A stretch of DNA of 64,000 bases from NCBI GenBank assembly GCA_943736015.1, contig OX031061.1, positions 61,510,192 to 61,574,191 on the forward strand. Reading direction: 5' to 3'. A model generated the notes under the pieces. That model searched no databases. It was not told the DNA's origin and saw nothing but the letters and a program-made list of their open reading frames with translations. The DNA is from Tridacna crocea. Taxonomy: Eukaryota; Mollusca; Bivalvia; Cardiida; Cardiidae. Both the position numbers and the translations under genes were made by a program. Each line of letters begins with the position of its first letter. Positions within the stretch are counted from its first letter, which is position 1. Shown piece by piece: positions 9,101 through 63,679 of this stretch.

Positions 9101-12100
9101 AGAATTCAATGTATTTTTTTTTTTTTTTTTTTTTTTGATTATTTTTGTATATGATAAGAAATATAAACACATGAATATATTGATTTTCTACAAAACAATA
9201 TAGATGTCGACGAATGTGCTGATCCTGAACCCCCTTACTGTGACCCAAATGCCACATGTACCAACACTGCTGGAAGCTATCAGTGCGTGTGTAATGTCGG
9301 ATATACAGGAAGCGGACTAGAGTGTCAAGGTAATGATGGCATCTTGAAAGTCTTTACCAGACGTTAAAATATTAGATTTACCCAAATGAAAAGCATATAA
9401 GACGACACTTTAAAATTTGTTACAAGTGATATGGCTTGTCTTTCGTAGAAGATAAAAATATATCATTACAAAAACAGAGCGCTTTTTATTTTTGTAATTA
9501 AAACAAGAATTGATCTTTACGGATAAAAAAGATTAGTCAGTAGGTCCAAAATGGAAGATATATCCTGTCGTTACAGATGTTTATAAATACGCTGACATAA
9601 AACAACTGCCCATCAAATGCTACACGTAGAAATACGAATGGAAGCTCTTAGTGTCTTTGTAATGGTGAGTTTTCACAAGTTCGAGGAAATTGTCAATGCA
9701 CCTTTTCATTTTAGGGTTATCTCTGAAAATTATTAAAACGACATATCTCATTGCTTTGCAGCACTGAAATAAAGATCATATATCAAAGTGTTCTACAAAA
9801 TATTTTTTCATCTAAAAGGGATCAATTTGATAGAAGGAAGTTAAGTGCGGTGATCCATTATATGTGCTCAATAAAGAGCCAGGGTGTTCTATGATTATTT
9901 TTGTTTATGATAAGAAATAAAAAAAAAGTATTTGAATATATGAATTATCTTCATGTAGATATTGACGAATGTGCGGATCCCGAACCCCTTTACTGTGACC
10001 CAAATGCCACATGTACCAACGCTGCTGGAAGCTATCAGTGCGTGTGTAATGTCGGATATACAGGAAACGGACTAGAGTGTCGAGGTAATGATGACATCTG
10101 TAAAGTCTCTATCACACGACAAAAATATGATAAACACATGAAACAAATTAAATCGATGTTTTGGATGCTTTTTCATTCTATCGGTGTCGTTTCTCCTTCT
10201 AGAGATCGAAACTTCTCTCAGGACTTGAGATTGTTCGTTTATACTTCGTTGAAGTTAAAGATCGTTTTGAAAAACAAATCAACGTATGAGCTGCCTCGTT
10301 TATTAGACTTTGAGCCAGCTGAGTGTTTGTTCCCCCCTCCACACACACACACACGAGTGACTTTTCGGGCCTATCAGTCAATAAAATCGAAATACTAACA
10401 AGAGCACAGCATGCACTTACCAAACCTCAGCTGCATGTGCTCCTAGAAATGTATTTATTTTCATTGAAAATCTACGAAGGACAGGCGTAACTGGTTTAAA
10501 AATGTTTTCATGGTTACCCGCCACTTCCATATGGGTTCCGCTTTTGATTGTAAAGAAGTCCGAGTTTGAAGTAAATATCTTCAGTAAGGACAGAGATACG
10601 ATAAAAATTCAATTTTTGCACAAGGATGATAAAAGAACTATGACAATCACTGAAAGTTTTTCTTCGAAAACAGCCAAGCTAAAAATTCAATCTGTCATTT
10701 TGAAGTAGAAAGGGTATGACCTAAGGTCACATCTACACTTGTGGCTAAATGCGTGATACAAATGAATAACTATGCTTGAATTTAGATATATACTATTCAT
10801 AGTTGTGATAAGGTCAACAGTTTATACGCATCAGTAATCCGTTAATTTGATAGAGCTCTGTGTATGTTACAAAGATGAATTAAATTCCTCATTTGGATTT
10901 GATATTTTGACTGAGGGAAATGCACCTCTTAAGGTACATTTGTTGGCCAGTATTCAGATACAGAGGACTATAGCGACCTAGGATATAAAAGCTCACATTA
11001 CTTTTGCTCAGTAAAATCATCATCATTCTCATGCTTTCCAGCCATATTGGGGGGTACCTTGTTTTGTTGTGGAAACTATAGTTGTTGTTTTACCATTGCT
11101 TCCTATTTATAATTCTTTTATTGCTCAGATCATTTTGTTCTTAAATATGTATAACTTTTTGTTTTGTGCTTGCAGAGCTCCAAGGCTATGTTTTCAATGA
11201 AGCATTTACTTACTTTGTTCAGGTTTTTTTTTATTGATAGTGTACAAGATCAACAGACACAATGTTTATTGTTGTTCAGCTGACCGGTTATAATTAAGCT
11301 TGTTTGATAGTTATGTTGTAACTTTGTATTTCTACTGTAGGCAAAAGACCTGCGCAAGGGTATTTTTTCCTCTTTCTATCATACTTGCATATTAAGTTTC
11401 CCGTCACGTTTTAAAATGGGAATGTCTGCTGCAGTAGACTTTGACTTTAAACTCCACCTCATTTAACTCTTTACCGAACTGCAAAATGTTAGACTCCAAA
11501 TTGAAAGCATTGGCAGACTACGGATTGAATGTGACTCAAAATCTGCAATTGCAAGGACCGTCATCATTTTTCCTTTGTCCACAATTTTTTCAAAAGCCAT
11601 CTTTCTGATGATCGTTAAAACTCCGGATTGTGTTGTATAATGCTAATCATTGCATTATTCTGCATCAACAGATGAACATTCCTTTGAGTTCCATATCAGC
11701 ACCATGGACTTATTGTTACTTAAAGGATATTGTTTCCCTCATTAAACATGATAGGTTGTATTTTACTGTATTATACTGTTCTATTACACATAATTGCAAT
11801 ACCAAAGATTGTCCTTCTGATTGAAAAAAAATTCAATGATCTTGAGGGAGGACATGTTCCTTCCTTTCTCACCTACTTTCTCATTCATAAACATAAACTG
11901 TGCTGTAAAAAGAAGTACCTGTTATTTGACAAAATATAATCTGTTTTGCAGAATGCTATATTTGAATCATTGTGAGAATAATTGAGTGCTTCCCTAGTCA
12001 TAGGAAAGTTGTTAATCATTTCAATAAAAGACAAATTTTAGAACTATATAATGGATCATCATAAAGAAAAAGATCTATACAACTCCATCCACTGGGTGTA

Positions 12101-20853: not shown

Positions 20854-23800
20854 TAAAATATTCATTTTTTCCAACTGTCATATATACACCATATATATAT
20901 TTATTTCATCCATTTAATTACAATATATGTGTACAATTACATTGATAAATACTCATTTTCAATCCATATACGGTATGTTCAGGCACTATCATCATCCGAC
21001 TAGCTGTCATCCTTCAAATTTATAAAAAAGGAGTCTATATGCTTATCTATGTAATTATCATTCGCTCTGCACTTCTCAATGTGCATATCCACATGATTAC
21101 AAGCGGATCTCCAGTTTTCTGGTCTTATTTCATCCATGGCTTTCTTTATTAAACGGAGAACATCATCATATCTGTAAATAGAAGGATAGTTTGTGAGAGC
21201 TTAGAATTCATTCGTATCTATTTGATAAATTCTGAACGATCATCTCTTATAAATTTTTTTTTTACTTTAACTGGCTCCAGATAAGCTCAATTGGATTGAA
21301 ATCTGGGTGGTAGGGTGGAAGTCTCAAAACCTCATGTCCATAATATCTTATCAGGTTTTCAATAGCATACTCTGGGGCTTTCTTGTGCATACGTACAAGT
21401 TGGAGAAGTTCGGACCGCAACATGGTGCTGTCGAAACTAATGTTTTCTTTCCTCAACCATTCCTGTATGAAAAGATAAAAATTGGCATAGAAAAAGAATG
21501 TGTGCTTATAAAAAATGAGTATAAGAAAAAACTGGGAATAAAAATTCTGCTTTTACAATCTAAAGTATTCCTGTGATAAATTGAAGTATATTTTATCATT
21601 GATGTCCTTCTTCTTCTTCCTCTTCTTCTTCTTAATCATCTTCACCTCCCCTTTTATCCCTTTGTTTACTATCCTGGCTATACTATCTTTGTTATAATGA
21701 TAATAATAATAATAATAATGGACCTTTATGTAAATCAGCGACACCAAAATAAATATTAAAAACTGGTGCAGGTCGCTTACATAAATAACCCTTAAGGTAG
21801 ATAGACTTTTAAGTGTCATAAAAATCTTCAAAAACGGCAAACGTTTCGTCCTAGTTTGATCTTCAAGCAGTGAGTATTACACTGCAAACACATGTATTTG
21901 GCTTATATTGTTGGACGAAATTTCGCGAGATGGGGGACTACATTTTAACCTGTAGATCGGCTTTTTTGCTGTTAGATGTAGGACATTTGTCGACTTTCAT
22001 TGAATGATATGACGCATTGTCCATCACAATTACACTTGGCTCATCCAGTCTCTGAAGCAGCCGTTCTTCCAACCATCTAGTGAAGTTGGCACCATCCATT
22101 TCGTTGTGATAGTCACCCTTTTTACTCTTAGCTTTGTAAACCAGGCTGGCTCCAGGGATAAATGCATGTTTGGTTCCTGCATTTACAACAATGATACGCT
22201 GTCCACGGTTGCAGGGTGAAATAATCCCAGTTGTATAGGGACCTTGCCAGCACTTCTTTACCGTATATACTGTGTCGATCCAAGTCTCATCTATATAAAC
22301 AAATAGGAGGTTTCTCTTTTCAAATTCATTTTTCTCTGTATAAAAGTAATTCTTTCGTTCACTATGTTCGGTTTTTCGATTAAAACTTTTCGATTGTCTC
22401 TTGTTTTTGTCCACGTACATCCCATTTCCCGTATCAATTTCCTTAGTGTGGATACACTTCCTGTAAAGTTAATGTCCCTTTTCAAAGTTGTTTGCAGCAA
22501 CTTCAACGTGGGCAATTGTTTCTGCACTGTGTAAAATTCCTTTATTTTGTTTCGTATAACGGACTAGTCAAAGTCATCTATAGCCTTGTAAGGCTCTCTC
22601 CGGTGTGGTTTCTGTGGGGAAAGCAGTTTTCCTGTTTCTTTCATTTCTTTTCTGATTCTCCATATTGTACTGGTGTTAACTCCAGTAGCCTCGGCTGTTG
22701 ACTGGAGATACGTTGATGATCCCTCGCTGTTGAAAAATCTTCCGAGACATTGTAAACGATTTCCTTCGCCCTAGCATTCATTTGCTGCTGACCTTATCTG
22801 CCTGCTATCTTTTAGCATACATGACAGAACACAAATACATGAAACTCGGATCTCTAATGAAAATATTGTATAGGCACGAGTAGGGCGTGTCCAAATTTAT
22901 TACTTCTTTTACTTAAAATAATTATTAAAAAGACAAAAAAATTACCCTGCTGTGCGGTTTCGAACCAATGCCGTCGTCACCTGCAGTCTGCTGCCTTTTC
23001 CTGTCGTCCAGAATATTGATTCGGAAGAAGGATGGGTAGATAAACATTTTATACATAGGCTAATCTCCGAATACCAACGAGGATACTCGTAAATGACCGA
23101 TTTCTTACGAAACTTTATATATTCTTTGGTAATTTATGCTTTGCATGAAGGTCATTTTCATGTCAATTTGTTTCGGTAATACCATCCTTTTATGGTTTTT
23201 TATATAATTGTAATGAGAAAAATGATTCAATAACTCAAATGTATTTATTTAGACTTTTGCTGTATCACATTATCTATCGCACGACTCAGATTCGACAGCA
23301 CATTATTCTACAAGTAGACTTCGTGTTAAATTATATGCGATGCCAACCATCAGAAATGGTTTAGGTTTTTAATAGACATTTATCATCGTATAGAAAATAA
23401 CCTTGCATGTTTTCATTTAGTCCTGTCCAAACTTGACAGTGTAAAAATGGAGTGGGTGGGGTATGTTTATATCAGCTCTTTCCGTATTTGACGTAAAGAT
23501 CACCAAGGAAGATTTTTCTTTCTAAATGTTATATTTTTGGGTCTTTAACATTAGTATCCATTTTTGAACAGTAGTATGAACTTTTCTTCTAAACACAAAA
23601 GAGTGCAAGAGTTTCAGAGGCATAAAAAAGCGACTTGAACTGTTCCAAGTATTACTGAGTTATTATTTTGGTGTTATGAATAGTAACGGAAGCTGTCAGT
23701 CTGTGTGTAATACTGGATACACAGTAAACAAACATTTTGTCAAAATAATAATGGCATTATTATACACTTTGCCGAAATGTTGATTCTTCCAATTCCAAGG

Positions 23801-46487: not shown

Positions 46488-46531
46488 ATGGCCGAATATC
46501 TAGCCTCAATTTTTGGAACAGAAAAAGACAA
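46488..46531 (+). CDS. U2AF1: U2AF1 exon 1
   Basis: [15 protein letters not shown] with the last codon split (AA/A) at donor GTGAGG. The start is set by identity to the conserved U2AF35 N-terminus. Confidence 0.96.
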
Positions 46532-49500
46532 GTGAGGGGTTTTATTATAACGTTTATACCTTCAAAAGAAAATGTCAGCTTTCTTTTCTGATTTTTTTAA
46601 TAAAATTGGTCTCCAAAAGGTTGACTTATTTTCCTTTCTGAACCTGTATTTGTCCATTGGCATGCAAACGTGAAATTCTTTTCGGACGTTTTCCATATGA
46701 TTTTTCCCACACTGAAGTTTATCAGCCTTCTTCTGTCTCGTGTGGTATATTGGCTTTTTGGAGGAAAGTAGAAGGGTAAGACAGGCAACAATTAAACCAA
46801 CAGGATATTTCAGTGTCTATTTTCAGTTGATTGACTCTCCCAAAACCAGTTCGACCCAGGGCTTATTCGCCCGGGCTTGTTCGTTCCACATTACTGAATG
46901 GATCGTAGCATACTATTCTTCAGACGGGCATTACATATTAAAATGTATGCTTTTCTTAGACATTTTGTGTCGATAGAAGACCATCACTGTTGGCATGGAA
47001 AGGGTTCGCTGATGCACATTTGTGTTTTTTTTTTTTATTTTTATTTATAATTAAAATTTTTGTATGGGTTATAAATGGGTAGAAGTGGCTTTTATAGAAA
47101 ACCATGTCAGAAAATATATTCCTTTCATACATTGTTTAAATTGTATTGTGGTGTACCAAACCTCTTATTACTCCATTTACTCCTTTATGTTCATTTAGAA
47201 GAGCTCTTCATTTATGGTACTTTTGTAGATATGAATGTAGTACATACGTGGATGAAATAAAGTTTATTGAATTGAATTGAACTCTACCAAATGATGAAAA
47301 TGTGGACTTGTTCAAATCGAAAACATTTGCAAACAACAATTCAGATGTGTCTAAAATAATGGTATTTGTTTGGAAAACATTAAGGGATTAGGAAAAAATG
47401 CTGGTTACCAGCATTTTCTCCTTTTCCCTTAATGTTTTCAAAAGGCTTCTTCCTCAGGAGTTGTCAAGGTAGAAAACAGCTATTTCCACTACAGTATTAT
47501 CTCAAACAATTTGCTATCAATAAAAATGAGTATTATCCTACTACTTTAACCAAGCCACTTTTTCCTTTTCGTCCTTCTTAAAATTATCATTTATTAATCT
47601 AAAACCACTATATTCTCATTACAAAGTGAGATAATAATTACCTCCCTTTTCTGGAAAATGACAAAAGTATCAACAAATAATTTCAAGATAAACATCAAAG
47701 GAATTTATGGTTGGTTAAAAACATGAAAAAGTGTTATATTTATCAACTATCAAGGAATTTTATTCTATGTTGCACTAGAAGGGTTACGGGTCTACTACCT
47801 TAAAAGTCTGGATTGTGTGGTAAAGAGTTAACCCAATACCAAACGACAATATTTTAGACTGGTCCAAATTGAAAGCATTTGCAGACGACCAAATAAAAGT
47901 GACTGAAAATTTGGAATTTGTTTTGTGAAGGGTAGAAAACATTGTGGGAAAAGGAGAAAATGCTGGTTACCAGCATTTTCTCCTTTTCCCACAATGTTTT
48001 CTAAAGGCTTCTTTCTCAGGGGCGTCAAAAGTAGGGATTGAGTGGTAATGGGTTAATCAGCATTGATCTCAATGGATTAATCTGCACAGTTATTTAATAT
48101 ACTTGTATTGTTGTAATGTCTATTTGTTCATGTAATTTATTATCCAACTTATTCATGATGTACTCAATTTTTTCAGAGTTAACTGCTCCTTTTACTTCAA
48201 AATTGGAGCATGTCGCCATGGAGAAAGATGTTCAAGATTACACAATAAGCCCACTTTCAGTCAAGTAAGTGATTATTAACCCTCTGATTACCAAGTAAAG
48301 GTTTTTCAATCTTTATCCAGAGCTCAAGATATTAAAAGGGAGTGATGGAATTCTAAATCCGTTATTTCTCTTCCAAACCATTTGTTGTGCGCACTCATTA
48401 GAATTGTCTTGATGAGATGATTCTAATGACTACCTATAACATCGGGTTTAGTGGAGAATAACTAATATTTCAATAATAAAATCAAAATCACTCCCTCGAT
48501 CAGAAGCTCTGTCTTGCCTCCTTACACTTTTGATAAGGTTTTACTTGTGATGAAATCAATTTGAAAGTACAATGAATAAAATATACCAATAGTGGGTATA
48601 TTCTCAGGATCAAACTGAGTAGGTGCTTCACAAAATAAGACATGATTTCAAGCTTTTTTCAACAGAGTTTCTTACCTAACCAGAAGAAGATTTTAACACT
48701 TTACCAAACAATCCCTGGTTTTTATGACCCCGAGATACATGTGGAAACCTTTTGAAACTATTGTGAGAAAAGGAAAAAATGCTGGTATCCAGCATTTTCT
48801 CCTTTTCTCACAATGGTTTCTACCCTGGCCTCTACAAAACAATTTTCAGTTCTTTAGTCACGTTAATTTTGTTGTCTGCCAAGGCTTTAAATTTAGAACA
48901 GTCTAGGATTTTGTCATCTGGTAAAGATTAAGGCAGATAAAAAAATTTGGAGAACACTTGTCCTTGAAAAACCTTAAACTTTAACTCTTTACCAAACATT
49001 AAAATTATAGACTGGTCCAAATTGAAAGCATTTGCAGACTACAAGATGAATGTGACTGAAGAATTGAAATTTGGTTTGGAAAGAGTAGAAACGTTGTGGT
49101 TCAAGCAGAAAATGCTGGTCCAGCATTTTGTCCTTTTCCCACAATGTTTTCAAAAGGCTTCTACCTCAGGGTCATCAAGTCATCATTGTGTGGTAAAGGG
49201 TTAATTGAAGAAGACATGAAGCTTTTTTTTCTCAACTCTTTACCACACAATCCTTAATTTTATCGACCCCCACTGGCCAGGTAGAAACCTTTTGGAAACA
49301 TTGCTGGTATTGCCAGCATTTTTTCCTTTTCCCCACAATGTTTTCTATCCATCTTTTGCAAGAACAGGGCTCATTATATAAATTTCTACCATGTTCTTTC
49401 CAGACAATCCTGCTACAGAACCTCTACTTAAATCCACAGAATGCTGCCCTTACTGCAGACGGATCACACAGTGAGTACAAGTACAGGCTTGAACCCATCC

Positions 49501-52500
49501 ACAGTTTTACAGAAAGCAGATTTGTCCTCCATATGGCCTGCAACACAATCATGAAGTTAGCATTCAGACGTGTGCGTAAAGTGCCATCTCGGATCAGCCT
49601 GTGCATTCCGCAAAGGCTAGTTCAAAAGGACACTTTCCTTTCTAATGTGGTTTTCTGCTTTGAGCAAGTCTGCTGTTGGAAAAAATCGATTGTAGTTGTA
49701 AAGTGCCGTCTCGGGTTAAGCAAATGTCTGAATGCCCCATTTTTTGAGTTACATGCCATTTCAGCCAAAATATTAGATTATTATACTGCAAAGAAATTTC
49801 TCGTGATCTGATTGGTTAACATGCTGGGAACATATATATCATGTTCCCTGGCAAAAACCACACAAAGCCAGTTTCCCTTTTGAGTGCCCCAGTGACGTCA
49901 GTTTTCATTGAATTGGGGCACTCAGAAGGGAATTTCTATTTCATCAGCATACATTTCATCAGCATATTTCATCGCCTTCAGCTCGGGACGACATAATTCT
50001 CCACAGCCGTGAACAAGTTTCCAAGTCCCCTGCCACTTGACCGTACAACTACTACTGTACAACCATTTCTCAGCATCACCTTTCCCATGAACGCATAAGA
50101 ATTAGTTCCATCTGTAGAGGTGGTTTGCTGCATCACTAAGGAAATAACCAGCAACTGGTAAAATATTAACCCTGTATGAAACAATTGTGAGATTTAATAA
50201 TGGAGAGAGAAACGGTTGTTGAAAAGACTGTTGGAAAAGGAGAAACTGCAGGTTGTCTGTCCTTTGAAAGACAAATTATATCTCTGTGGTTAGGATCTGG
50301 AGACATGGTTTTTTTTCTTTGCACTATCACAAATCATTTGGCTCTGTAAATGGAAAATCTTTTACAATATTTTTTAAATTTTAAAGGTATTTTGATAAAA
50401 CTTCACACATTTGTAAAGCACCATGAGACAAAGTTTCATGTACAAGAACCATAACTCTTGCATATATATATATTTTTAGAGTTATTTCCCTTTGATTTCC
50501 CTTTGACTATTTTCAGTACAATTTTGTGTCTGCAATAGAAATCAGGGAAAAAATGTTATTAACTCTATCATGGATTATTAATCCTACTGACACCAAAAAG
50601 GGGGCAGACATTATGGGATTTTTTTTTTCTAGAAAAACAAGTTCTAGTTTCATTATGTAGCAATTCTTAGAGTTACAGTTAGTTGGTGGTCTGCAAATTC
50701 TTTCAATTTGTAAAAGTTAGAAATGTTTTTGTTTGCTAAAGACTTAACTCTCTACCAAACGACAAAATTTTAGAGTGATCCAAATTGCAAGCACTTGTAG
50801 ACAACAAAATAAGCTCAACTCAAAAGTTGAAATTTGTTTTGAGAAGGGTAGAATGCATTGTTGGAAGAGGAGAAAATGCTAGTTTTCAGCATTTTTTTCT
50901 CTTCCTGCAATGTTTTTAAAAGGTTTCTATCTCAGAGTCATAAAAACCAGGGAATGTTGGGATAAAATGCTTGATAACTGAAACTGCATGTATACCTTTA
51001 ACCCTTTACCAAACAATCCCTAGTTCTTACAACTCGGAGGAAGAAGCTTTCTGAAAACATTGTGGGAAAAGGAGAAAATGCTGGTTACCAGCATTTTCTC
51101 CTTTTCCCACAATGTTTTCTATTGTTCTAAAGTCAACTTTCAATTTTTAAGTCACTTTCATTTCGTCATCTGCAAATACTTTCATTTTGGACAAATCTAA
51201 AATTCTGTAGTTTGGTAGAGAGTTAATACACAATCCAGAAGACAGCCTTTGAAAACATTTCATGAAATAGACAAAAAATTAAATACTGGTAATCACTGGT
51301 TTTTGCCATTTCCAAAAATGTGTTTTACCCCTTCAAAAAATTTCAGCAAATTTACACTACCGGGTAGTTTCAAAATATTTTTCTGTAAAATGTTTTCAAT
51401 GATTGGAGTCTAAAATTCTATTATCTGATAAAAGGCTAGAATTAACCTTTTACCAGACTATCGCAACTTCCAACAACTTTGCTAGAAAAAAAATTTTTAA
51501 GAACATTGTGGGAAAAGGAGAAAATGCTGGTAACCAGCATTTTCTCCTTTTCCAACAAGGTTATCTAACCTATCAAAGACAGAAATCATTACTTGAGCTG
51601 CATTTGATTTGTTGTCTGCAAATGCTTAGAATTTGTTCCAGTCCAAAATTTTGTTGTTTGATAAAGAGTTAAACTAGATTTAAAGTGATGTATTTAATTA
51701 TAAAAAATTATATCTGTTTCACTTTCTTTGAGGAAGGAAAGTTAATATGTAACATCGTAATAGTTTTTCATGATGGGAAAGTTAAAATGTAACATTGTGA
51801 AAATTTTTTGTGATGTGATGTTGTCTAAATGTTGTGATCTCTACCTAGCATTTTCTGTATGACATTATTTTTTTAGCTCCGTTGTTTTCAAAGAAAATGT
51901 CAAGTCACTGGCATGGCACTGTCACTGTCTGTTTTGTGGTGCAAAAACTTTCACATTTTCTAATATATCAATTATTATGGAAGATATTTACATTGTACTT
52001 GGACAAGTTTTATATTTTCAAAGGGCAAGCTATACAGCAAAAGCATGTAACTATCAAAGTATTTTTGACTCAGTTATGACCCTTCTTTGAATAAAATGTC
52101 TTGCTGAATCAAAGCAAGTGAAGTATTGGCACTCACATGTGGTGCTTTTGTTGAAACTTACATGTATTATTGAGTATATCAAACTACGGTACTATGATTA
52201 ACAAATAGAGAAGACAACATCCACCCAACATATCTATGTCCTCTGATCTTCATCTGCTCTCTTTCATAACTTACCAGTTTTTCTTTTTCCGATAAACTTG
52301 TGTTACTGTATTTGTAAAACTTTTGACTGCAGAGCTTCCAATGCATGTGGGAAAACTTAAAACACTCTTATCACTTCACAATTATAGCTTGCATATTTTT
52401 ATTATGTTTTTTGAACTCTTTACCAAACGACAAACTTTTGGACTGGTAACCAGCATTTCTCTCCTTTTTGCACAATGTTTTCTACTCTTCTAAAGCAAAG

Positions 52501-55500
52501 TTTCAATATTTAAGTTACATTTATTTTTTTGTCTGCCAATGCTTCCAATTTAGACAAGTCTAAAATTTAAGGTTTAGTGAAGAGTTTAGTGCTTAGTAAC
52601 TGCATCTTACATTTATAGTCAATGAAAAGAGCATTGGATGTCACAATTTCTATACTGTTTTTCTTCCAGATTATCTCGAACAATATTGTTTAATGTTACA
52701 GTATATCAAGGATCAGAGTGCAAATTTTTGTAGTCTTTTTTGATATCACTGTCGTGTGACATCATATTTGACGTCATTTTGTACATATTTCATAGAGAAG
52801 TGAATGGGTATATGGATATTAAACCTTCAAGGAAAAAATGTTATTAAGCTCTCCAAATGCTCGCTTAATAACATTTTCCCGAGACTTGTTTAATAATTTT
52901 TATCCTATCGCCAACTCTTGTCAGATCTAATCTATTTTGTCTATTTAAAACAACTTTCGTTTTGCTTTGCTTACTTGATTTTAAGTAAGCTGTAAATGAT
53001 GCTAAACATTGTAATATATCAGACTTTTTACCCTCTTTTTACTGCTACTAGGGGAAAACAAGCGATTGATTTTGTTGACTTGGTAGCTTATTATTTCTTT
53101 ATGCATGGATGTTGTGTCATTTTATTATTCTTATACTTTGTTTTTCATTGAGTCCAAAATCTGTTTACAGTGCTCAGAAAAAAAGCTTTGTAGAAATTAA
53201 CATTGTCCTGGGGTAGAAATATGGGCTTTTTGGCCATTGCATTGCTACATTTTCACCAGATATCAACACAAAAATTGTAGATTCAAGTCCAGACTTTATG
53301 TTCTAGCAATGAAAAACAATGTATATGTATCCCATGTTGTGATTAATAGTGTCCTTTATTTTGTAGGCTGATGGTTTCCCTTTTTTGTTGGATCACCTTG
53401 TTTTGCTTTCAGTTCAATTATTAGAATTTTGTTTTAGAGAGTGCTGTATTGTATTCTTCCTTTCGTAAATATATTCATGTATCATGTGTATGTCTAAGCT
53501 CTGCTTATACTATGATAATGGATAGAGTATGCTATTGGAAGGAGTAATAAGGAACTGAATGCTCAAAGTGTTTCGCAGATTTATTTGAAAGTAGTGAACT
53601 TTCTTGTTCAAATTGAAAAAGATAATAATTAAATAAGACTTACTCTTTGTTCCAAATTTGCTTATGGGTTTCGCTAATGTAATTTGTTAATTTGTGGTGA
53701 AATAATCTTCCTCATTATTGTCAGATGCTCTAACAGTTAGATTCTCCAAGTCATCAGTAATGATGGTGTTGTAATTTCATAACTGTTTTAAAAATAACCT
53801 GAGCATGTTGTAATTTCATAACTGTTTTAAAAATAACCTGAGCATAGTTATAAGCAGAGTTTGATGTACATTTATTTATTCTGGTAGCATACAGTTACAG
53901 AAGATATGGGTTCTTAATTCAGATGAATTACCGTACTATAAGGTTTGAGATAGGGTGACTGAAGATTACCATGGTAAAAGCACTTTTTCATAGCAGTAAA
54001 GTTAGAATTTCAATATGAATTATTTTAGACTTGCTTTCAATTTTAAATCTTTTTAATTATGATTCATGTGGATTGTATAGTATTAAATGGATAAAGGATT
54101 TCTCATCAGATTACCATAGGAGCACAGTAGCTTTTGAAACAGTGTACTGCCGTATTTATTTCATAAGTGGAGAGTTGCACATTTTTCAAAAGTCCAAAAA
54201 AAGTGCAACTTAAGGTCATAATAGAAAGTGAATTTTTTACATAAGTCCATGGTATTGATATGAAAGTAGTGTCTGTATTGTTGAAAACTGTTTACTTAAT
54301 TCAGTATTTATGAAGAATTAAGACAAGTCTTTATTTCAGTTACTATGGATGATGTTGAAGCTCAGCAAACTTTTGATGATTTCTTTGAAGAGGTTTTTAC
54401 TGAACTTGAAGATAAGGTTTGTGTGAGGGTCCTTTGCATTTAAAAATCTTTTTGAACAAACAGGCAGAATGTGTCCATATTTCTCTGATTTTATGGGGAG
54501 GAGTGTTTTTTGTTTTCCCTTAGAATACTTTTTTCCCGCAAAAGAACAAAAGTGGAAGTAATTTTAGATAAGAAAATACAGGTAAAAACTTTTTTTTTTA
54601 ACTTCAATGTTGTGATATGGATCAATAAGCTTCAATTCATGTTGATCATCAACATTTAATGAGCTCTAATTGCTTCAAACAAATACAGAGATGTATTATA
54701 GAGTTGTTACAGATTTGACACTTTGTGTTGCTTTTGACTTTAATTTTGTTTTTGAACTGTCACAGACCATTTGCTCCTTTTATTGTTGATCTTGTCAACA
54801 AGCCAATTGTATTTGTATTGGGCAATTATGAGTTCTACAATCACAATGGCCCTGAAATTGTGTCTTGTAAAAAAAGATTAGTAATTTTGTAATTGAAGCA
54901 GATATCCCCATAAATCAGTAATGGATAAATTCTGCCTGTAAGAGGTCTGTGTATATACATGTATATTAATAATATTTGATATTTCAGTGAGTCCATTATG
55001 TAGCAGTTTTCCTGTTGTAGTGAGCACAGGTAATCTGCAGCTAAAATCATATTTCACTTTATATCTTTTCCTCCATAGCCAGCACAGGATCAGTTCTTTT
55101 TTATTTTTTACAGCCTGCCTAAGGACTATTTTACCCATAAAGTTTCCCACAAATGTAAAGCTTTAAGATCTATTTTTTTTGTCTTTAGTCCAAATGGATG
55201 AGCTAGAAATTCAGCAGCACTATGATGAGTTCTTTGAGGAAATTTATGTTGAATTGGAGAAGGTAATTAAACCATAACACCTACTACTAAACTTGTATGA
55301 ATTAATAATCATTACTTACTAAACATACTAAACTCTCTGGTTACCTTACCATCCTATTTTGCATGATGGGGTTACGTAGGATGACTGTCTGAGTCAAATA
55401 TCCCAAATAAGATATACTTTAAAAAGAAATTCAAAAATTGTACAAATTATATGAGGATCAGTTTTATTAATGGCTGACTTAGTCATTATCTTTACCAACT

Positions 55501-58500
55501 ATCAAATGCTACCTTTTGAAATTCAGATTTTTTCATGCGCAAAATTTATTTTGTTTTGTACAAAAAATGGCTGGTTGTAAGATTTCTGTTTAATTGCCTT
55601 GTAATTTAAAATCTTATTTCTATGTCTAGTCCAGTTAAAAAAAAAAACAAAAACACATGCTAAAAAAGGGATCTAAGAAGGCAGAGAAAATATACATTTC
55701 AGTGCTTCCCTTGAATACTTAGTGGCATCAAAGTAAAAACAATTACTTGTGATAATTAAAAGGCATTATATATTCAAGACAACAGTATGTTTTGCGTAAA
55801 TCTTGTAGTAAACTATTTGTTAAGTGCCTGAAACTGACATCACTCTGTAACGAATAACACTAATAACTTCCAAAATCAATTGAGGATTACTGGTATGTTA
55901 TTAATAACTAACAAGACCAATGACAATTGATCAGGACTGTCTCTTTCCGCATGGTTTGGTATGGATATTTGTACTGATAGTTATATAACAGTATGTATCA
56001 TGAAAGTATTGTATGCAACTGAATTCTTCAAACACAGCACAATTGAGAAAAAATTGTGATTGTATATCAGGACTAGTTTTGATGAAATTGTGTCACCTCA
56101 AACCCCATTGCTCCTACTAACTCTGAGAATGGCTTCCACGTATAGTTTCAAGGGAAAAGCGCATACCTAAATGTATAAAAATAAAGGACATAATTATTAA
56201 TCCTTTCTGTTTTCTTCTTTTCTTTTCACTCAGTTTTCATTAATTCAGCATGTTGTGTTTTATAACATCAAAATAACGAGATAATTTAGACTAATATCAT
56301 AGAACTCTATAATTGTATCTATTGAGGTATAAATATATTGAGATAGAATTATATGTATCAAAGTCTGGATAGCTTAGCATGGTCCATGTAAGCTTAGGTG
56401 TTGACAAATGAAGGCATCCTATATTTTCAAACTGTTGTGTTGACTGATCTTTCATCAAAGTGTACCAGCCTGTCTTTTTGAAGATTTTTGTGACAGGAAA
56501 TTATTTCTGTCTCGCAGCTATTACATCAACATAACATCAATGGAATGAGAATGAACTCCAAAGCAGCCAGTAGCTTGAAAGAAACTTGATGAAAAGTGGA
56601 GTTCAAAATTCATCATACTCTGTTCAGTATTTTTCTACTAATGCTGTTTGTTAATTCACAGTTTCGTCTGTGTGATTTGCATTATGAATTCCAATGAATG
56701 AAAACTTCATAATTTTAAAACATACAGATCATATTGAGGCACAAAATCAGTTAACACTGATTGCCCTTTGATTTTCTTTACTTAACTCTTTTCTGACCGA
56801 TTTTAATAGAGGAGATCTGGATTCAATAAACAATTTGAACTATTAGAAGTTTTCAAGATTTAAATCAGTATGTTCTAGGTCAAATTACTTATCTTTTAGG
56901 TATGGCCCATTGAATTTTCCTACAAGTAGTATACATTGTACATGTATATATTTATCATACATGTATACATTTATTTGATTAAGGCATATATCAGTTCACA
57001 ATAGTATTGATAATGACAAAAGGAGGAAATGTATAGTTTTGGGACAACAATGATAAAGGTCAAGGTCAGGGGAGAATTTTGTGTAGGCTTTTTCTGAGGT
57101 TTAATTCAACAGTGAAAATTTATCCAGGTGTCGCTTGTGACTCAAGGGGGGACCCTATAGGTCTTTACCCTCAGAGGTCAGGGTCACTGAAGAATTTGGT
57201 TCTATCCTCTGAATAAAAGCTACTGCTTTTAGGCAACGAAAACTTACACAAGTGTTGCTATTACCAAAGGAAGAACCCTATTTCATTTAAAAGTGACTTT
57301 CATTTATTGACAGCGCACCAACTGTGGCTACCCATATCCTTGTTCTACCTTGTGATCAGTGCCATAATTCATACCAGCTACATGTATTTTTCATTTTGAA
57401 ATTATATTTGTGAATTATCAAAGATCTGTGACAACAAATAAATTCCTTTTTCAATATTTTGAACTCTGACACAATGCTTTTGTATTACAGTATGGAGAGA
57501 TTGAAGAAATGAATGTGTGTGACAATATGGGAGATCATCTGGTTGGAAATGTGTACGTAAAGGTAAGGGTACTGTCATGGAATTATGATAACTTCTATTA
57601 ATAAAGTGTGGTGTAATGTTGTGAGAGCCATTGTTTTTGTATTTTGATTTACATGATAATAAAAGTAAAGATATTGTAGTACTGTGTATTGTGACCCTAT
57701 GCATAGTGTTACACAGAAATTTATGTACGGAATTGTTTTTCTGTTCTATGATAAATTTTGGTTGGAAAGGTAAGCATAGTAAAGTGTTGTGGTGTTAAAA
57801 GTGGCCCATCTGATTTGGGATGAAATTTTACAAAAAATACGAAAAAAAATCATCCTTATACTCCCAAAGCCTTAAAATTTTCATTCATTAAACCCCAGTA
57901 GTGAAAAACCATCTAACAACAAGAGAAATTCAAGTTTTCCTGTGGCCCAGGTCGTCACCTATGGGAAACACGGTCTATTTTTACATTAGCAACTGGCACA
58001 TTAACATACCAGAAATACACAAACGAAGCTTCAAACATACATGTAGCTTCCAAAGAAGACATCATGGAATTTAAGCGTCATAATTCATGTGCCTGTCACT
58101 TGACATTCCCGCTTTGCTTTTTTTATTTCTGGCTACGTAACCTTTAAAGGGAATACCATCAAACATTTTTTTTTTTGTAATTTTATGATCCTTAATTATT
58201 GATGATTTGTATTGTTTTTTAATATAAATTTCAGTAGTATATATGTTTTATAACTTGATGAAATGTGAAAAATCTAAATACCCACCTGTAAGTTTTAAGT
58301 TATTTAGTTCTGTTTACAAACAGGTAAGTGTTTTTGAAATATTTTTTCATTTAAAAAAAAAAGTACAGTAGACATATTAGTAATACAGTAGACTTATTAA
58401 TAATTTTCATTTTTAAACCCTTTACCACACGACAAAATTTTGGACTCATCCAGATTGAAAGCATTTGCAGACGACTAATTAAAAAGTGTTTCCAATGAAG

Positions 58501-61500
58501 AGTAACTTCTGAGAAAGGGTAGAAAACATTGTTGGAAATGGAGAAAATGCTGGATCTAGTATTCAAAAGGTCCAGAGTTCAAGACCCAGATGTGGATCAA
58601 TGTTCCTACTTGCGCAAATTGTTGCGTTAATCAAGTTATGGTATTGAAATTCACAAAACAAACTTTGGTTACGTGAGAGACCGCACACAAGTTAAAAACA
58701 AAAGATAAAAAAAATCCATATCCGCTAAACTTGTCTAAAATGACGGGATTTTAATTTACTTGCTGCCCATATTGATGAATTATTGTCAAATTAGGTGCAA
58801 AAACCTATCTATGAATTAACACACATGAAAAAATACTTGATGCAAAAAACCATGGAAACCCATGACACAGCACAATGCTCTTTTTGAAATTGTCCAACCA
58901 TATTCACTTCAGACCATCTTTTCAGCTTTTTAATGACATTAAACAGTAAACTTTCACTGATATCTGAATATAACATACTCTTGTGATGCAAAACCTCATT
59001 ATTGATTACTTTACCTTTATTTTGGAACTACTATTGGCATACCCTGTAGTATGAAATCTGACCCACAGATATATAGCTCAGGGGGTAAGTGTACCCTTCA
59101 AATAAAAAGCCAGAGGGTGTCAACTTTGGGGTTTTTCATTGGCCCACACATGCTGCACGTGTACAAACTTAGTTTCCAGAAAGCAGAATCAAGAGATTTG
59201 TAAAAACTTCTTTCTCAAATGACATAAATGTTTTTAAACTAAATACTATGTAAAGGTGTTTGCCATAATTATGTTTCAGTTCCGCTATGAAGAAGATGCA
59301 GAAAAAGCAGTCAATGATCTAAACAATCGCTGGTTTAATGGACGACCAATACATGCTGAACTTTCTCCTGTAACAGACTTTAGGGAAGCTTGTTGCAGAC
59401 AATATGAAATGGGGTAAATGGACAACTCATTTCTTCTAACTTTTTTTCTCCACACAATCCAAAGTTTTAATGACCCTTCAGAAAGCGTTGAAGCAATTCC
59501 TAGAGCTATGTTAGCTTAATTGGTAGCATGCAGGAATTAAGAAGAATAGATCATGGGTTCAATCCATAGCACAGCCAATTTGTTTCTGCAGATCGATGGT
59601 AGTCATTACCACAGGATTCATTCATCTCCCATCGCAGACCATTGTCTTGATGATGGTAATGTGGGAAAGCAGCCAGTGGCTTAGAAAGTAAATTGCATAG
59701 AGTATTGGTAAGAGGGACTCCAGGAAAGGATGATTAGAATTACTTGTACTGGTCACCATGATATAAATGAAATAATGTTGAAAACACTGTTTAACACCAA
59801 AGAATTTGCAAGAATTCTGGGAAAAGAAGAAGATGATGGTAACAGGCATTTTCTCCTTTCATCCCACAAATCTCACAACTTTAGCTACATTCCATATGTC
59901 ACTTGCAAATGTTTTCAAAATGGACAGGTGTAATTTGTCTGATAGAGTAACAGAATTATAATTCATGCTGGTTATAGATCAATTAAATGATTTTTAAAGT
60001 GCACAAAGGATTTATAGTCACTATTTGTAAAGAGCATAGGAAATGTTTCAGGTAAAGAGGCAGATGCTTTGTAAGCATTTTCCCATTTTTGTACAAGATT
60101 TCCAACTGGTTGAGTGCACATGTGTTTCACCTTTGTAACTAGTGAGCATCGACAACTGTTTTGGTTTTCAATTAAAGAGTAAGAAAATAAAAATTGGTGT
60201 TTTTCACTGAAATATCAAAAATATTTCACCTGTATTTCTTGATAAGCTAACTGAAAGTATGAAATAAAATGCTCTATTTCACACATTTAACCCTTTCCCA
60301 AACATGCCCTGGTTTTTACGTGTCTGCAGTACAGGTCTTTTGAAAACACTGTGGGAAAAGGAGAAATTGCTCGTAACAAGCAATTTCTCCATTTCCCAAA
60401 GTGTTTTCTACCCTTCTTTGAGAACCTACTGCCATTTTCTCTAAATCTCAAATTGTCGTCTTCAAACTCTTTTGGTTAGGAAGAGTCCAAAATTTGTCAT
60501 TTGGGAAAGGGTTAAGACAAGTTATTTTACTATGTTTCAGGGAATGCACTCGAGGTGGATTCTGTAACTTCATGCACCTCAAGCCAATTTCTAGAGAGCT
60601 GCGCCGAGAGTTGTATGGCCGGTCTAGAAAGTCAAAGAAGAGGTAAAGATAATCTGAGCTAGCTCTTATCATGCTAAATAAGCAGAATGAGATTTTTAAA
60701 CTTATAGTAAAAACTCGACTTTCGCTACTTCGCAGGTACTTTTTTTAGGGAAAATATGCCCTTATCACTGTTATTGGGCAGGTAAGGTCAAAGATCAGAC
60801 TGCACATTCTGTGCAGTCTGATCTTGATCTGCACTGTCTGCAAAAAGTCAGTGAGTCATGCTTAGCAGCCTAATGATTAATGCTTAACTCTTTACCAAAC
60901 GACAAAATTTTAGACTGGTCCAAATTGAAAGCATTTGCAGACGACAAAAAAAAGGTGACTGCAAAATTGAAATTAGCTTTGGGAAGGATGGAAAACATTG
61001 TGGAAAAAGGAGAAAATGTTGGTTACCAGCATTTTCTCCTTTTCCCACAATGTTTTCACAGGGTCGTTAAAAGTCGGGATTGTGTGGTAAGGAGTTAACT
61101 CTTTCAACACAAATTTATTTATCAACTCAACCTGTTTTGATAGCTATTTTGTTTGCTTGATTAAAGAAACTGATGGAATATATTCGAGATCAGGCTGGAT
61201 GTTCTGTGCTGCATGATCTTGATCTATGCCCTCCATTAAAGTCCCTTATTTTGCCTATTTCTCTGAGAGGGTTTAATCTTTCACTGATTTGGAATCTTTT
61301 AGCCACTAAAGTGAATATAAGCCATTCAGACTTACAGTATAATGACACTATGTATCCTAACCCTAGACACCTTTTGTAAACTTTCTGGGAAAAAAAGTGA
61401 TTACATGTTACAACTTACTGTTGCCCATCTCTCAATGTTTTTTTTTATATCTTGATAAAAACAGCAACTTTAATTCAATTTCAAGTCTCTTGTACTAAAA

Positions 61501-61976
61501 TGAGTGGAAATAATGTTAGATGAAAACTGTGAATTTCTGACACTAGTCGATTTTGAAGAGAGAAAAAGCCACTCCCTTCTTTTAACCCTTTCCCAAACAA
61601 TCCCTGGTTTTTACAGGTCTGGAATGGTAGCCTTTTGAAAAAAATTGTGGGAAAAGGAGAAAATGCTGGTAACCAGCATTTTCTCCTTTTCCCACAATGT
61701 TTTCTACCCTATCACAGACAGAAATCATCTTTTCAGCAAGAGTTGAATTGTCGTCTGCAAATGCTTTCAATTTCGTCTAGTCCAAAAGTTTGTCGTTTGG
61801 GAAAGGGTTAAGAGATTTTAAATGTATGTCTTTCTACTTGTATTTCATTTGACAGATCTCGATCTCCACCCACACGGCGAAGTCGCAGTAGGAGTAGAAG
61901 CCGTGAAAGGAAGCGACGTTCTGCAAGTCGTGAAAGGAGGAGATCTAGGTCCAGAGACAGAAGGGGCCGATTTTGA
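46488..61976 (+). CDS. U2AF1: U2AF small subunit (U2AF35), complete gene, eight coding positions with duplicated exon 4 (overview)
   Basis: The protein recognises the AG of 3' splice sites together with U2AF65. Exons 46488-46531, 48177-48264, 49404-49470, one of 54340-54416 or 55189-55262, 57491-57562, 59280-59413, 60541-60642 and 61856-61976 give 234 residues (4a) or 233 (4b), against 240 in human. Seen: zinc finger 1 (Cys18, Cys27, Cys33, His37) with Ser34; UHM with R133-W134-F135 in NNRWFNG; zinc finger 2 (Cys155, Cys163, Cys169, His173) with Gln157; and a short C-terminal RS domain ending RRGRF, lacking the vertebrate glycine run. All intron phases close. Family identity is certain from conservation; the duplicated exon is the unusual point. 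Confidence 0.97.
47279..47470 (+). mobile_element. Fold-back MITE in U2AF1 intron 1, interrupted
   Basis: Left end AACTCTACCAAATGATG; the core palindrome around GCTGGTTACCAGC has arms ATTAAGGG/CCCTTAAT instead of the usual ATTGTGGG/CCCACAAT. The right end (AAAAGTCTGGATTGTG, GGTAAAGAGTTAA) is found about 320 bp further on at 47798-47830. The element is therefore either interrupted or followed by a second partial copy. Confidence 0.8.
47827..48056 (+). mobile_element. Fold-back MITE in U2AF1 intron 1
   Basis: From TTAACCCAATACCAAACGAC to GTGGTAATGGGTTAA, with a perfect ~62-bp core around GCTGGTTACCAGC. It ends 121 nt before exon 2. Confidence 0.9.
48177..48264 (+). CDS. U2AF1: U2AF1 exon 2: zinc finger 1
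   Basis: [18 protein letters not shown] to FSQ, a CCCH finger. 88 nt, donor GTAAGT. Differs from human by Glu for Asp at 31. Confidence 0.97.
48694..48931 (-). mobile_element. Fold-back MITE in U2AF1 intron 2
   Basis: Reverse orientation. The core is around GCTGGTATCCAGC with arm segments TTGTGAG/CTCACAA, both changed relative to the family TTGTGGG/CCCACAA. The element starts AACACTTTACCAAACAATCC. Confidence 0.87.
48981..49204 (+). mobile_element. Fold-back MITE in U2AF1 intron 2
   Basis: From TTAACTCTTTACCAAAC to GTGGTAAAGGGTTAA. The central palindrome is partly eroded on the left (GTTGTGGTTCAAGCAG). Confidence 0.85.
49233..49366 (-). mobile_element. Partial fold-back MITE just before U2AF1 exon 3
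   Basis: Starts AACTCTTTACCACACAATCC, retains ATTGCTGGTATTGCCAGCATT and CCCCACAATGTTTTC, and lacks the distal end. About 37 nt separate it from exon 3. Confidence 0.78.
49404..49470 (+). CDS. U2AF1: U2AF1 exon 3
   Basis: 67 nt, the same length as human exon 3 and its alternative Ab; encodes [20 protein letters not shown] plus Ser-His. Only one version is seen here, unlike vertebrates. Phase 0 in, 1 out, donor GTGAGT. Confidence 0.94.
49787..50050. mobile_element. Composite MITE with hairpin end, internally deleted copy
   Basis: Starts ATTATACTGCAAAGAAATT and ends CCACTTGACCGTACAA, in opposite orientation to the copies at 26272 and 34079. Most of the middle is missing. In U2AF1 intron 3. Confidence 0.75.
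50745..50975 (+). mobile_element. Diverged fold-back MITE in U2AF1 intron 3
   Basis: Left end TTAACTCTCTACCAAACGAC; core GGAGAAAATGCTAGTTTTCAG with eroded right arm. Confidence 0.8.
50998..51225 (-). mobile_element. Fold-back MITE in U2AF1 intron 3
   Basis: From TTAACCCTTTACCAAACAAT to TTTGGTAGAGAGTTAA; perfect core around GCTGGTTACCAGC. Confidence 0.9.
51433..51672 (-). mobile_element. Fold-back MITE in U2AF1 intron 3
   Basis: From TTAACCTTTTACCAGAC to TTTGATAAAGAGTTAA; core around GCTGGTAACCAGC. Confidence 0.88.
52412..52588. mobile_element. Recombinant fold-back MITE in U2AF1 intron 3
   Basis: Both ends are of the same arm type: AACTCTTTACCAAACGACAA on the left and the complement of the same arm (AATTTAGACAAGTCTAAAAT) on the right. 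One half of the core is missing. This suggests an inversion or recombination within the palindrome. Confidence 0.7.
52589..54339 (+). other. Rest of U2AF1 intron 3
   Basis: No second version of exon 3 is seen. Around 53760-53850 a ~45-bp segment (TGTTGTAATTTCATAACTG) is directly doubled. Otherwise AT-rich, featureless sequence. Confidence 0.5.
54340..54416 (+). CDS. U2AF1: U2AF1 exon 4a (alternative)
   Basis: 77 nt, acceptor CTTTATTTCAG, donor GTTTGT. Encodes residues 67-92, [19 protein letters not shown] plus TELEDK, matching human exon 4 in length. It keeps the human-like VFTELE-K end but has Thr-Phe where human has His-Tyr. Enters in phase 1 (A/TT) and leaves in phase 0. Forms the N-terminal helix of the UHM that packs against U2AF65. 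Confidence 0.93.
55189..55262 (+). CDS. U2AF1: U2AF1 exon 4b (alternative)
   Basis: 74 nt, acceptor TTTGTCTTTAG, donor GTAATT. Encodes [19 protein letters not shown] plus VELEK. It keeps the human-like HYDEFFEE core but is one codon shorter near the end. Same entry and exit phases as 4a, so either can join exon 3 to exon 5. If placed after 4a it would read TCC AAA TGG ATG AGC TAG, a stop. Confidence 0.93.
55263..57490 (+). other. U2AF1 intron between exon 4b and exon 5
   Basis: 2.2 kb without MITEs of the main family or recognisable exons. AT-rich. Confidence 0.5.
57491..57562 (+). CDS. U2AF1: U2AF1 exon 5
   Basis: 72 nt encoding [20 protein letters not shown] and VYVK, the RNP2/RNP1 strands of the UHM, almost identical to human. 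If both 4a and 4b were skipped the frame would hit TGA within this exon. Confidence 0.97.
58415..58560 (+). mobile_element. Truncated fold-back MITE in U2AF1 intron 5
   Basis: Left arm complete (CCCTTTACCACACGACAA through GAAAATGCTGG), then cut in the middle of the palindrome and followed by unrelated sequence. Confidence 0.8.
59280..59413 (+). CDS. U2AF1: U2AF1 exon 6: end of UHM and start of zinc finger 2
   Basis: 134 nt encoding [19 protein letters not shown] through ACCRQYEMG. Contains the RWF loop needed for U2AF65 binding in UHM proteins. Donor GTAAAT, phase 2. Confidence 0.97.
59455..59935 (-). mobile_element. Old fold-back MITE interrupted by a SINE
   Basis: Left remnant 59455-59500 (CACAATCCAAAGTTTTAATG) and right remnant from about 59776 (GAAAACACTGTTTAAC, GGCATTTTCTCC, TGCAAATGTTTTCAAAATGG, TTTGTCTGATAGAGTAAC to about 59950) flank a tRNA-headed insertion. 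Arms are eroded. Confidence 0.65.
59503..59775 (+). mobile_element. tRNA-derived SINE
   Basis: The head has A box TTAGCTTAATTGGTAGCATG and B box GGGTTCAATCC about 30 nt apart, and GAGCTATG pairs imperfectly with CATAGC at the end of the tRNA-like part (59503-59573). The body continues with CATCTCCCATCGCAGACC and TGTGGGAAAGCAGCCAGTGG to about 59770. No intact tRNA acceptor stem, so this is a SINE, not a gene. Confidence 0.65.
60287..60515 (-). mobile_element. Fold-back MITE abutting the exon 7 acceptor
   Basis: From TTAACCCTTTCCCAAACATG to TTTGGGAAAGGGTTAA. The core is around GCTCGTAACAAGC with ACACTGTGGG on one side and CCAAAGTGT on the other. The element ends about 25 nt before exon 7. Confidence 0.88.
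60541..60642 (+). CDS. U2AF1: U2AF1 exon 7: zinc finger 2
   Basis: 102 nt encoding [20 protein letters not shown] and [14 protein letters not shown]. Completes the second CCCH finger. Donor GTAAAG. Confidence 0.97.
60884..61098 (+). mobile_element. Fold-back MITE in U2AF1 intron 7
   Basis: From TTAACTCTTTACCAAACGAC to GTGGTAAGGAGTTAA, with an almost perfect core around GTTGGTTACCAGC. Just upstream (60787-60840) lies an unrelated small palindrome around CAGTCTGATCTTGATCTGCA. Confidence 0.9.
61581..61810 (-). mobile_element. Fold-back MITE near the exon 8 acceptor
   Basis: From TTAACCCTTTCCCAAACAAT to TTTGGGAAAGGGTTAA, perfect core around GCTGGTAACCAGC. Ends 45 nt before exon 8. Confidence 0.9.
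61856..61976 (+). CDS. U2AF1: U2AF1 exon 8: RS domain
   Basis: 121 nt encoding [20 protein letters not shown], more Arg/Ser, then RDRRGRF and TGA (61974-61976). RS domains are phosphorylated and mediate SR-protein contacts; this one is about 40 residues. Confidence 0.96.
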
Positions 61977-62145: not shown

Positions 62146-62151
62146 AATAAA
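62146..62151 (+). terminator. Polyadenylation signal of U2AF1
   Basis: AATAAA 170 nt after the stop. A second AATAAA at 62768-62773 could give a longer 3' UTR. Confidence 0.6.
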
Positions 62152-63100: not shown

Positions 63101-63679
63101 TTATTTCCCAATAAACACTTCACCAGAATGAATAGGATATTTTTCATCTGTGATTTTTATGTTCCGGAAGTAGCTGTATGTGTCACCATGGTTGCCATAG
63201 TATTTTTCACTTCCGCCGTAGAATGTGGAAAAAAATAGTCCCTCGATTTTGATACTCGAGGATGTACGCATAACAACATTGGTAATCTGGACTTTAAGTT
63301 CACCATCTATCCACAAAGATATACGCCCATGGTGATTTGGTTGGCCCAAATTAACCTCTTGTCGAATAGTATACCATCTTTCTGGGACAAATTTGTGATC
63401 ATCGGTGGAGGTTAGTCCGATTTCTGTGCCACAATTCCCGCTATGACAGATAACTCGATTATGGGTGCCATATTTATTACACCAACTTGACCATCCACCA
63501 TCTTGTCTATCCGGAACATAAGCATATACCTCGTAATGACCTCCCGTTCGCCACATAAGACGAGTGGTGAAACAACCGTCCGCATTTCCAGAACAACCCT
63601 TACATGAATCCCGTCTTCCGCCAAAAAATCCAGGTAATTTACCTCCACTTGCGAACTCGAAACCTTTGGCGAAATACAC
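63101..63679 (-). CDS. Polysaccharide lyase family 14 (alginate-lyase-like), last exon
   Basis: On the minus strand the exon starts after CATCACAG with VYFAKGFEFASGGKLPGFFG, the family hallmark, and runs to a TAA at 63103-63101. Further family features are LMWRTGGHYEVYAYVP, FVPERWYTIRQEV, GRISLWIDGE and LFFSTFYGG. PL14 enzymes of gastropods and bivalves cleave alginate or related uronic-acid polymers by beta-elimination in the gut, and the Tyr-x-Val-Tyr-x-Tyr strand is in the region of the catalytic tyrosines. Cys-rich loops (CKGCSGNADGC; CNKYGTHNRVIC; CGT) suggest disulphides. The exact substrate is not established. An AATAAA overlaps the stop codon. Confidence 0.93.
   Translation of the reverse strand: MYFAKGFEFASGGKLPGFFGGRRDSCKGCSGNADGCFTTRLMWRTGGHYEVYAYVPDRQDGGWSSWCNKYGTHNRVICHSGNCGTEIGLTSTDDHKFVPERWYTIRQEVNLGQPNHHGRISLWIDGELKVQITNVVMRTSSSIKIEGLFFSTFYGGSEKYYGNHGDTYSYFRNIKITDEKYPIHSGEVFIGK
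63103..63108 (-). terminator. Poly(A) signal next to the PL14 stop codon
   Basis: Minus-strand GGGAAATAAATTT puts AATAAA across the TAA stop. If used it would leave almost no 3' UTR; no clearer signal was seen immediately downstream. Confidence 0.35.

Follow-up and report, generated by a model that had tools for sequence, protein, structure and literature searches.

Does a gene for the small subunit of U2AF make one protein or two when one of its exons is present in two diverged versions? This question is raised by the U2AF1 gene of Tridacna crocea, which lies in the 64-kb window (that is, the whole stretch of DNA analysed here), and in which exon 4 exists as two copies, termed 4a and 4b. The gene product is one of the core factors for 3' splice sites, and studies disagree on the functional difference between its vertebrate isoforms. 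As judged from the sequence, exon 4 was duplicated in tandem long ago in the only U2AF1 gene found, and the two copies have probably been kept as a mutually exclusive pair that exchanges the greater part of UHM helix A.

The U2AF1 Gene and Its Two Versions of Exon 4

The identification of the gene as U2AF1, proposed in an earlier note on this DNA, is borne out by the Pfam domains and by the matches to U2AF23 and to the human UHM. The gene is complete in the window, on the plus strand, where a tblastn search of the 64 kb with human U2AF35 as the query gave nine exon positions, including those of 4a and 4b; the introns are GT-AG throughout. Exon 1 (coding part, 46488..46531) was placed by tblastn and a check of the spliced frame, exon 2 (48177..48264), with the first CCCH zinc finger, by tblastn and the Pfam zf-CCCH match, and exon 3 (49404..49470, 67 nt), which is the exon doubled in mammals and which is here in a single copy, by tblastn and a scan of the flanking introns. 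Exon 4a (54340..54416) is 77 nt long and encodes 25 residues, the greater part of helix A in the UHM; exon 4b (55189..55262) is 74 nt long and encodes 24 residues, corresponding to the same segment minus one. Both were placed by tblastn (E-values of 8e-6 for 4a and 1.9e-5 for 4b), by their frames, and by the scan, and the exon boundaries leave between them a GT-AG intron of 772 nt (54417..55188). Exon 5 (57491..57562) was obtained by in-silico splicing, as was exon 8 (coding part, 61856..61976), which carries the RS domain and the stop; exon 6 (59280..59413), which encodes the remainder of the UHM including the RWF loop, and exon 7 (60541..60642), which encodes the second zinc finger and the helix region after it, were obtained by tblastn and in-silico splicing. 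An AATAAA lies past exon 8, at 62146.

The isoforms with 4a and 4b are 234 and 233 residues long, and exon 8 reads as an RS domain through to the stop at the C-terminus of both. Pfam gives zf-CCCH at 53.7 bits (two stretches) and RRM_1 above the cut-off in both isoforms. Both match residues 1-185 of S. pombe U2AF23 (E 4.4e-77 to 9.4e-79) and the human U2AF35 UHM, 1jmt (E 6e-50 for the 4a form and 2.5e-48 for the 4b form). The two CCCH zinc fingers around a UHM, together with the full-length match, place the product in the U2AF small subunit family. At the position of the UHM motif YRNPQN, exon 3 (49404-49470) reads YLNPQN, and Drosophila has YVNPQN. YRNPQN has been described as almost invariant in the UHM (PMC5224494).

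The doubling itself emerges from a scan of seven exon positions (2, 3, 4a, 4b, 5, 6, and 7, with exons 1 and 8 left out), in which the candidates in the flanking introns had to lie between an AG and a GT, to be open, to have the same phase, and to be within 15 nt of the exon in length. Exon 4a found 4b at 0.56 of its self score and 4b found 4a at 0.58, whereas the best score for exons 2, 3, 5, 6, and 7 was 0.17 (exon 3); in the controls, the maximum was 0.08 on the reverse strand (all seven positions) and 0.15 in shuffles (exon 3; 20 shuffles each). Exon 4 is therefore doubled and exons 2, 3, 5, 6, and 7 are not, no second copies of these having been found in their flanking introns. The exon coordinates, the lengths of 77 and 74 nt, and the gap of 772 nt in the earlier note were all reproduced, and its statement that exon 3 is single holds for both the flanking-intron scan and a protein search of the genome. 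Exons 4a and 4b are, like known mutually exclusive pairs, adjacent, internal, and homologous, of similar length and in the same frame, with GT-AG ends.

Age and Constraint of the Pair

Across 24 codons, 4a and 4b share 68% of their nucleotides, with 23 of the 72 coding positions being different. The synonymous differences amount to 7.5 changes in 11.3 sites (dS about 1.6) and the nonsynonymous ones to 15.5 changes in 60.7 sites (dN 0.31), and the flanking sequence, compared over 380 nt to either side, aligns no better than shuffled sequence. At the protein level, 10 of the 24 aligned residues differ, plus one indel, as against a mean of 14.6 changes expected at 23 differences without protein constraint; the fraction of such unconstrained expectations with 10 or fewer amino acid changes is 0.0043. 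The synonymous excess has a Fisher p of 0.003 or 0.03 according to how the site counts are rounded, over only 24 codons. In a simulation of a neutral copy, which assumes 0.1 indel per substitution, the AG, the GT, the frame, and the open codons were all kept in a fraction of 0.013-0.020 at 0.3 substitutions per site, about 0.0014 at 0.5, and at most 0.00005 at 0.8. These results argue that the pair is old and protein-constrained, the evidence being real but modest for so short an exon, and from them we infer that both versions are used.

Reading Frames and Exclusivity

Exon 3 joins 4a and 4b at the same phase, and both copies finish at a codon boundary. In-silico splicing reproduced what had been claimed for the four possible transcripts: with 4a alone or 4b alone, the frame is open through to the stop in exon 8; with both, the protein ends in ELEDKSKWMS at a TAG that is the sixth codon of 4b; and with neither, it ends in SHIWRD at a TGA within exon 5. 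Joint inclusion or skipping (with the usual 4b acceptor) hence breaks the frame, and the premature stops lie 364 nt (both exons) and 294 nt (neither exon) upstream of the last exon junction. A transcript with either 4a or 4b would be translated into a full-length U2AF35 carrying the corresponding version of helix A, and a transcript with both or neither would meet an early stop and be expected to undergo nonsense-mediated decay.

The earlier note described this exclusivity as enforced by the frame. That the wrong transcripts are unproductive stands, but the frame does not make the exons exclusive: a length not divisible by three comes with the phase of the exon, so that any tandem copy shifts the frame if both exons are included or neither is, and a barrier inherited in this way is not independent evidence for exclusive use. 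Greater weight is carried by the exact one-codon difference in length between 4a and 4b and by the absence of a stop from either. Moreover, at five AGs inside 4b, which by eye sit in purine-rich exon sequence, splicing would spare more than one codon of 4b and permit an in-frame join of 4a to the shortened exon; the exclusion is therefore not absolute in principle. In human exclusive-exon clusters, 377 of 629 are reported to have exons not divisible by three, and reads joining both exons were found in 83 of those 377 (PMC5740500).

A rival explanation is that the regulated event is the making of transcripts bound for decay, double or skipped, which adjust the level of U2AF1, with the protein difference being secondary. 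The early stops, far upstream of the last junction, are what such a device would use, two acceptors of unequal strength might respond to the level of U2AF, and forms of this kind exist in mammalian U2AF1, where the exclusive pair is at exon 3 (Ab/3) and where the double and skipped forms are reported to have stops that make them targets of nonsense-mediated decay (PMC5224494, PMC6821156). However, adjusting the dose does not need two diverged and constrained coding versions, and 4a and 4b are constrained and yet differ at 10 of 24 residues, so that we hold this explanation to be unlikely compared with an exclusive pair kept for its two proteins.

Splice Sites and the Choice between 4a and 4b

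If one copy is chosen in each productive transcript, the splice sites might be expected to bear on the choice. By matrix score, the 4a acceptor is the lowest of the eight in the gene and lies at the 63rd percentile of the AGs in the window, as against the 87th to 99th for the other seven; the 4b acceptor, with a long pyrimidine tract, is at the 98.5th. The 4a donor is the lowest of eight by matrix and the second strongest by U1 pairing energy. The claim that both exons have good splice sites is overstated, the 4a acceptor being weak. Matches to the branch-point consensus number four within 60 nt for 4a and one, 56 nt away, for 4b. Nothing firm is drawn from the local folding at the acceptors (mean unpaired fraction of 0.39 at 4a, 0.53 at 4b, and 0.29-0.59 at six others), nor from the longest pyrimidine runs (5 at 4a, 8 at 4b, and 3-7 at the others).

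Two mechanical forms of exclusion were considered and are not supported. Steric exclusion by a short intron is one, the 772 nt between 4a and 4b being too long. The other is exclusion by a distant branch point, as reported for OGDH, in which the branch points lie 25-41 nt from the 5' splice site (PMC7969005); this appears a poor fit to an intron of 772 nt in which the previous AG lies 21 nt before the 4b acceptor. A selector-like shared flank that would enforce the choice was sought within 380 nt of 4a and 4b, where none scored above shuffles. In the region 49471-57490, there are 44 inverted repeats (a raw count), and among the 25 listed, one is inside the 4a-4b intron.

The choice between 4a and 4b would rest on regulation. 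With its long pyrimidine tract, 4b would be the likely default, and 4a, with the lowest-scoring acceptor, would need help; the position of 4b as the default is not clear-cut, since by the branch-point consensus 4a is the better placed. Among duplicated exons in human cells, those activated by U2AF are reported to have shorter tracts than their repressed homologues (PMC5224494). By analogy, it may be guessed that dependence on U2AF belongs to 4a rather than to 4b.

Helix A of the UHM

The doubled segment falls within helix A of the UHM, as had been proposed, and exon 4 encodes most of this helix. Compared with human positions 69-92, the two copies have in common E73, Q75, D79, F81, F82, E83, E84, E88, E90, and K92; the human residue is found only in 4a at five positions (D71, V72, V85, F86, and T87), only in 4b at three (H77, Y78, and E80), and in neither copy at six. 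The idea that each copy retains different ancestral parts finds support in these five and three positions. Identity to human is 15/24 for 4a and 13/24 for 4b, compared with 55/66 for exons 1-3 and 90/95 for exons 5-7 up to LYG (Fisher p 1.4e-4 for 4a versus exons 5-7), which indicates that helix A has changed faster than the rest.

This drift in both helices, beyond that of exons 1-3 and 5-7, would also be in keeping with only one copy being used and the other being a decaying or rarely used exon, for which 4a, with the lowest-scoring acceptor of the eight, would be the candidate. Yet a neutral copy at such a divergence rarely keeps its frame, open codons, and splice dinucleotides, and the human residues lost by one copy are kept in the other (five in 4a and three in 4b); a single used copy is, in our view, distinctly improbable, and a pair in which both members are used is the reading followed here.

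Exon 4b is one residue short near the end of the helix. The same length occurs in the UHM of SPF45, in a ZRSR2-like gene, and in S. pombe U2AF23, which was compared as a protein only, over the alignment to its residues 1-185, and the shorter helix therefore need not be a defect. The bit scores are higher for 4b than for 4a against U2AF23 (267.1 versus 264.6) and RRM_1 (34.2 versus 31.5), and higher for 4a than for 4b against human 1jmt (173.2 versus 167.9).

In SPF45, Glu329 is reported to pair with the Arg of the R-X-F loop, the two forming the tryptophan pocket, which is lined by Thr326 (PMC7648758). The SPF45 letters at 326, 329, and 332 agree with the count along the SPF45 UHM chain. In an alignment of SPF45 with human U2AF35 that was anchored on the KYG end, and in which the site of the one-residue gap was inferred, Glu329 would correspond to human E88, kept in both 4a and 4b, and Thr326 to human V85, where 4a has V and 4b has I. 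Since neither copy loses the putative pocket glutamate or the acidic charge, and the RWF loop is retained, both isoforms should still bind the ULM of U2AF65, and they would more likely differ in fine features of the geometry of helix A. An alteration in the binding of U2AF65, as put forward in the earlier note, is therefore possible, although the pocket-aligned Glu and the acidity common to both copies suggest fine tuning rather than loss.

For the human isoforms of U2AF35, heterodimers are reported to form alike and the sets of 3' splice sites to overlap highly (PMC5224494, PMC6821156). Their levels are described as depending differently on U2AF65 via alpha2 and alpha6 (PMC5224494), and different sequence preferences are described in edited cells (PMC6821156). 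By analogy, a switch in helix A could act through these same contacts, alpha2 and alpha6.

U2AF1 and Its Partner in the Genome

The genome searched comprises 1.05 Gb in 31 contigs and includes the window. A spliced-DNA query gave five matches, namely exons 3, 4a, 5, 6, and 7 of this U2AF1, and a protein query up to an E of 10 gave ten, of which seven are in this U2AF1 and three are weak matches elsewhere; one of these three reads like ZRSR2. Only one U2AF1 gene was thus found by the two queries. A retrocopy carrying 4a or 4b, which would prove a spliced product, was not found among the best candidates scored with the spliced-DNA query.

These searches also bear on the possibility that the assembly joined two alleles, or part of a second gene, side by side, a fault considered because misjoined haplotypes can yield duplicated exons; no support was found for it, the genome searches gave no further U2AF1 gene, and differences at 23 of 72 coding positions between unalignable flanks are unlike those of alleles, so that an artefact is very improbable indeed.

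The U2AF small subunit is reported to be essential in S. pombe and human and to be absent in S. cerevisiae (PMC8624252). If this is the only U2AF1 gene, every U2AF35 molecule has a helix from 4a or from 4b, and the basic work must fall to one of the two forms or to both. A U2AF65 query of the genome gave 15 matches, seven on contig C1 within about 10 kb and eight, weaker, to RRMs on other contigs; the seven appear to represent one U2AF2 gene. The ULM exon of this apparent gene (L031:1501-1605, minus strand, on C1) has an intact YWDVPP core. With a single apparent U2AF2 and an intact ULM, both versions of U2AF1 would face the same partner.

In a viral collection, two stretches had a pattern match and neither encodes a relative; in a prokaryotic collection, there were 80 pattern matches, of which two, short and from Chitinophaga, cover query residues 6-25 and are not U2AF1 genes. 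Given what these collections contain, neither result bears on other molluscs.

Other Features of the Window

A 14-base core, GGAGAAAATGCTGG, has 31 matches in the part of the window from 31131 to 61686 (at most two mismatches, both strands), against 0.36 expected by chance. Within the U2AF1 gene are 24 of the 31, frequently paired as hairpin arms; examples are at 47391-47421, 51071-51101, and 61656-61686. These repeats probably constitute a family of non-autonomous transposons. A weak match to the DDE_3 transposase, below the Pfam cut-off, is found in an ORF at 21938-22420 on the minus strand.

Just downstream of U2AF1, an ORF on the minus strand (63101-63679) has a polysaccharide lyase 14 domain (147 bits), and its only match of solved structure is an alginate lyase. 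Such lyases are known from molluscs. Two ORFs about 7.2 kb apart, at 2717-3307 and 9901-10398, look alike by eye and have an EGF domain (an EGF_CA match in the first), which suggests a local tandem duplication.

Comparison with Known Systems

The statement that the vertebrate pair is at exon 3 (Ab/3), and not at exon 4 as here, is in agreement with what is reported for mammals (PMC5224494, PMC6821156), and zebrafish is described as being without the alternative exons (PMC5224494). Among the titles and abstract starts listed in literature searches, none describes a doubling of exon 4 in U2AF1, and an annotation of both isoforms may already exist.

As described in the two mammalian studies, the Ab/3 pair (U2AF35b/U2AF35a) has several points in common with 4a and 4b: the gene is the same, the exons are tandem and homologous with a length not divisible by three, one is used per productive mRNA, the double and skipped forms carry stops, the variation in the UHM is near helix A (alpha2), and one copy has a longer pyrimidine tract. 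The differences are that the mammalian pair is at exon 3, is 67 nt in length, and varies at 7 residues, whereas here the pair is at exon 4 and varies at 10 of 24 residues plus one indel. No doubling of the mammalian kind is present, the 67-nt exon 3 being single, with a scan score of 0.17 against a shuffle maximum of 0.15. The doubling of exon 4 is a duplication independent of the mammalian one, one exon downstream.

A wider interpretation, which we advance tentatively and regard as rather doubtful, is that an isoform switch in or next to helix A of U2AF35 has been built at least twice in animals, at exon 3 in vertebrates and at exon 4 here, that it may offer two preferences for 3' splice sites, and that U2AF may itself set the ratio, because 4a, with its short tract, would depend on U2AF more than 4b, with its long one. 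If true, a second switch, arisen independently at this part of the UHM, would mark helix A as a preferred place to tune U2AF, and the two exons would offer naturally occurring variants, differing more than the mammalian pair does, with which to probe helix A and its contacts.

Beyond U2AF1, the human set of exclusive exons, which is defined by junction reads, shares with 4a and 4b the adjacency, homology, similar length, and common frame of its members (PMC5740500), and exons 4a and 4b of OGDH are likewise described as an exclusive homologous pair (PMC7969005). An exclusive exon pair in U2AF1 is, then, a known phenomenon, and what would be new here is its occurrence at a new exon.
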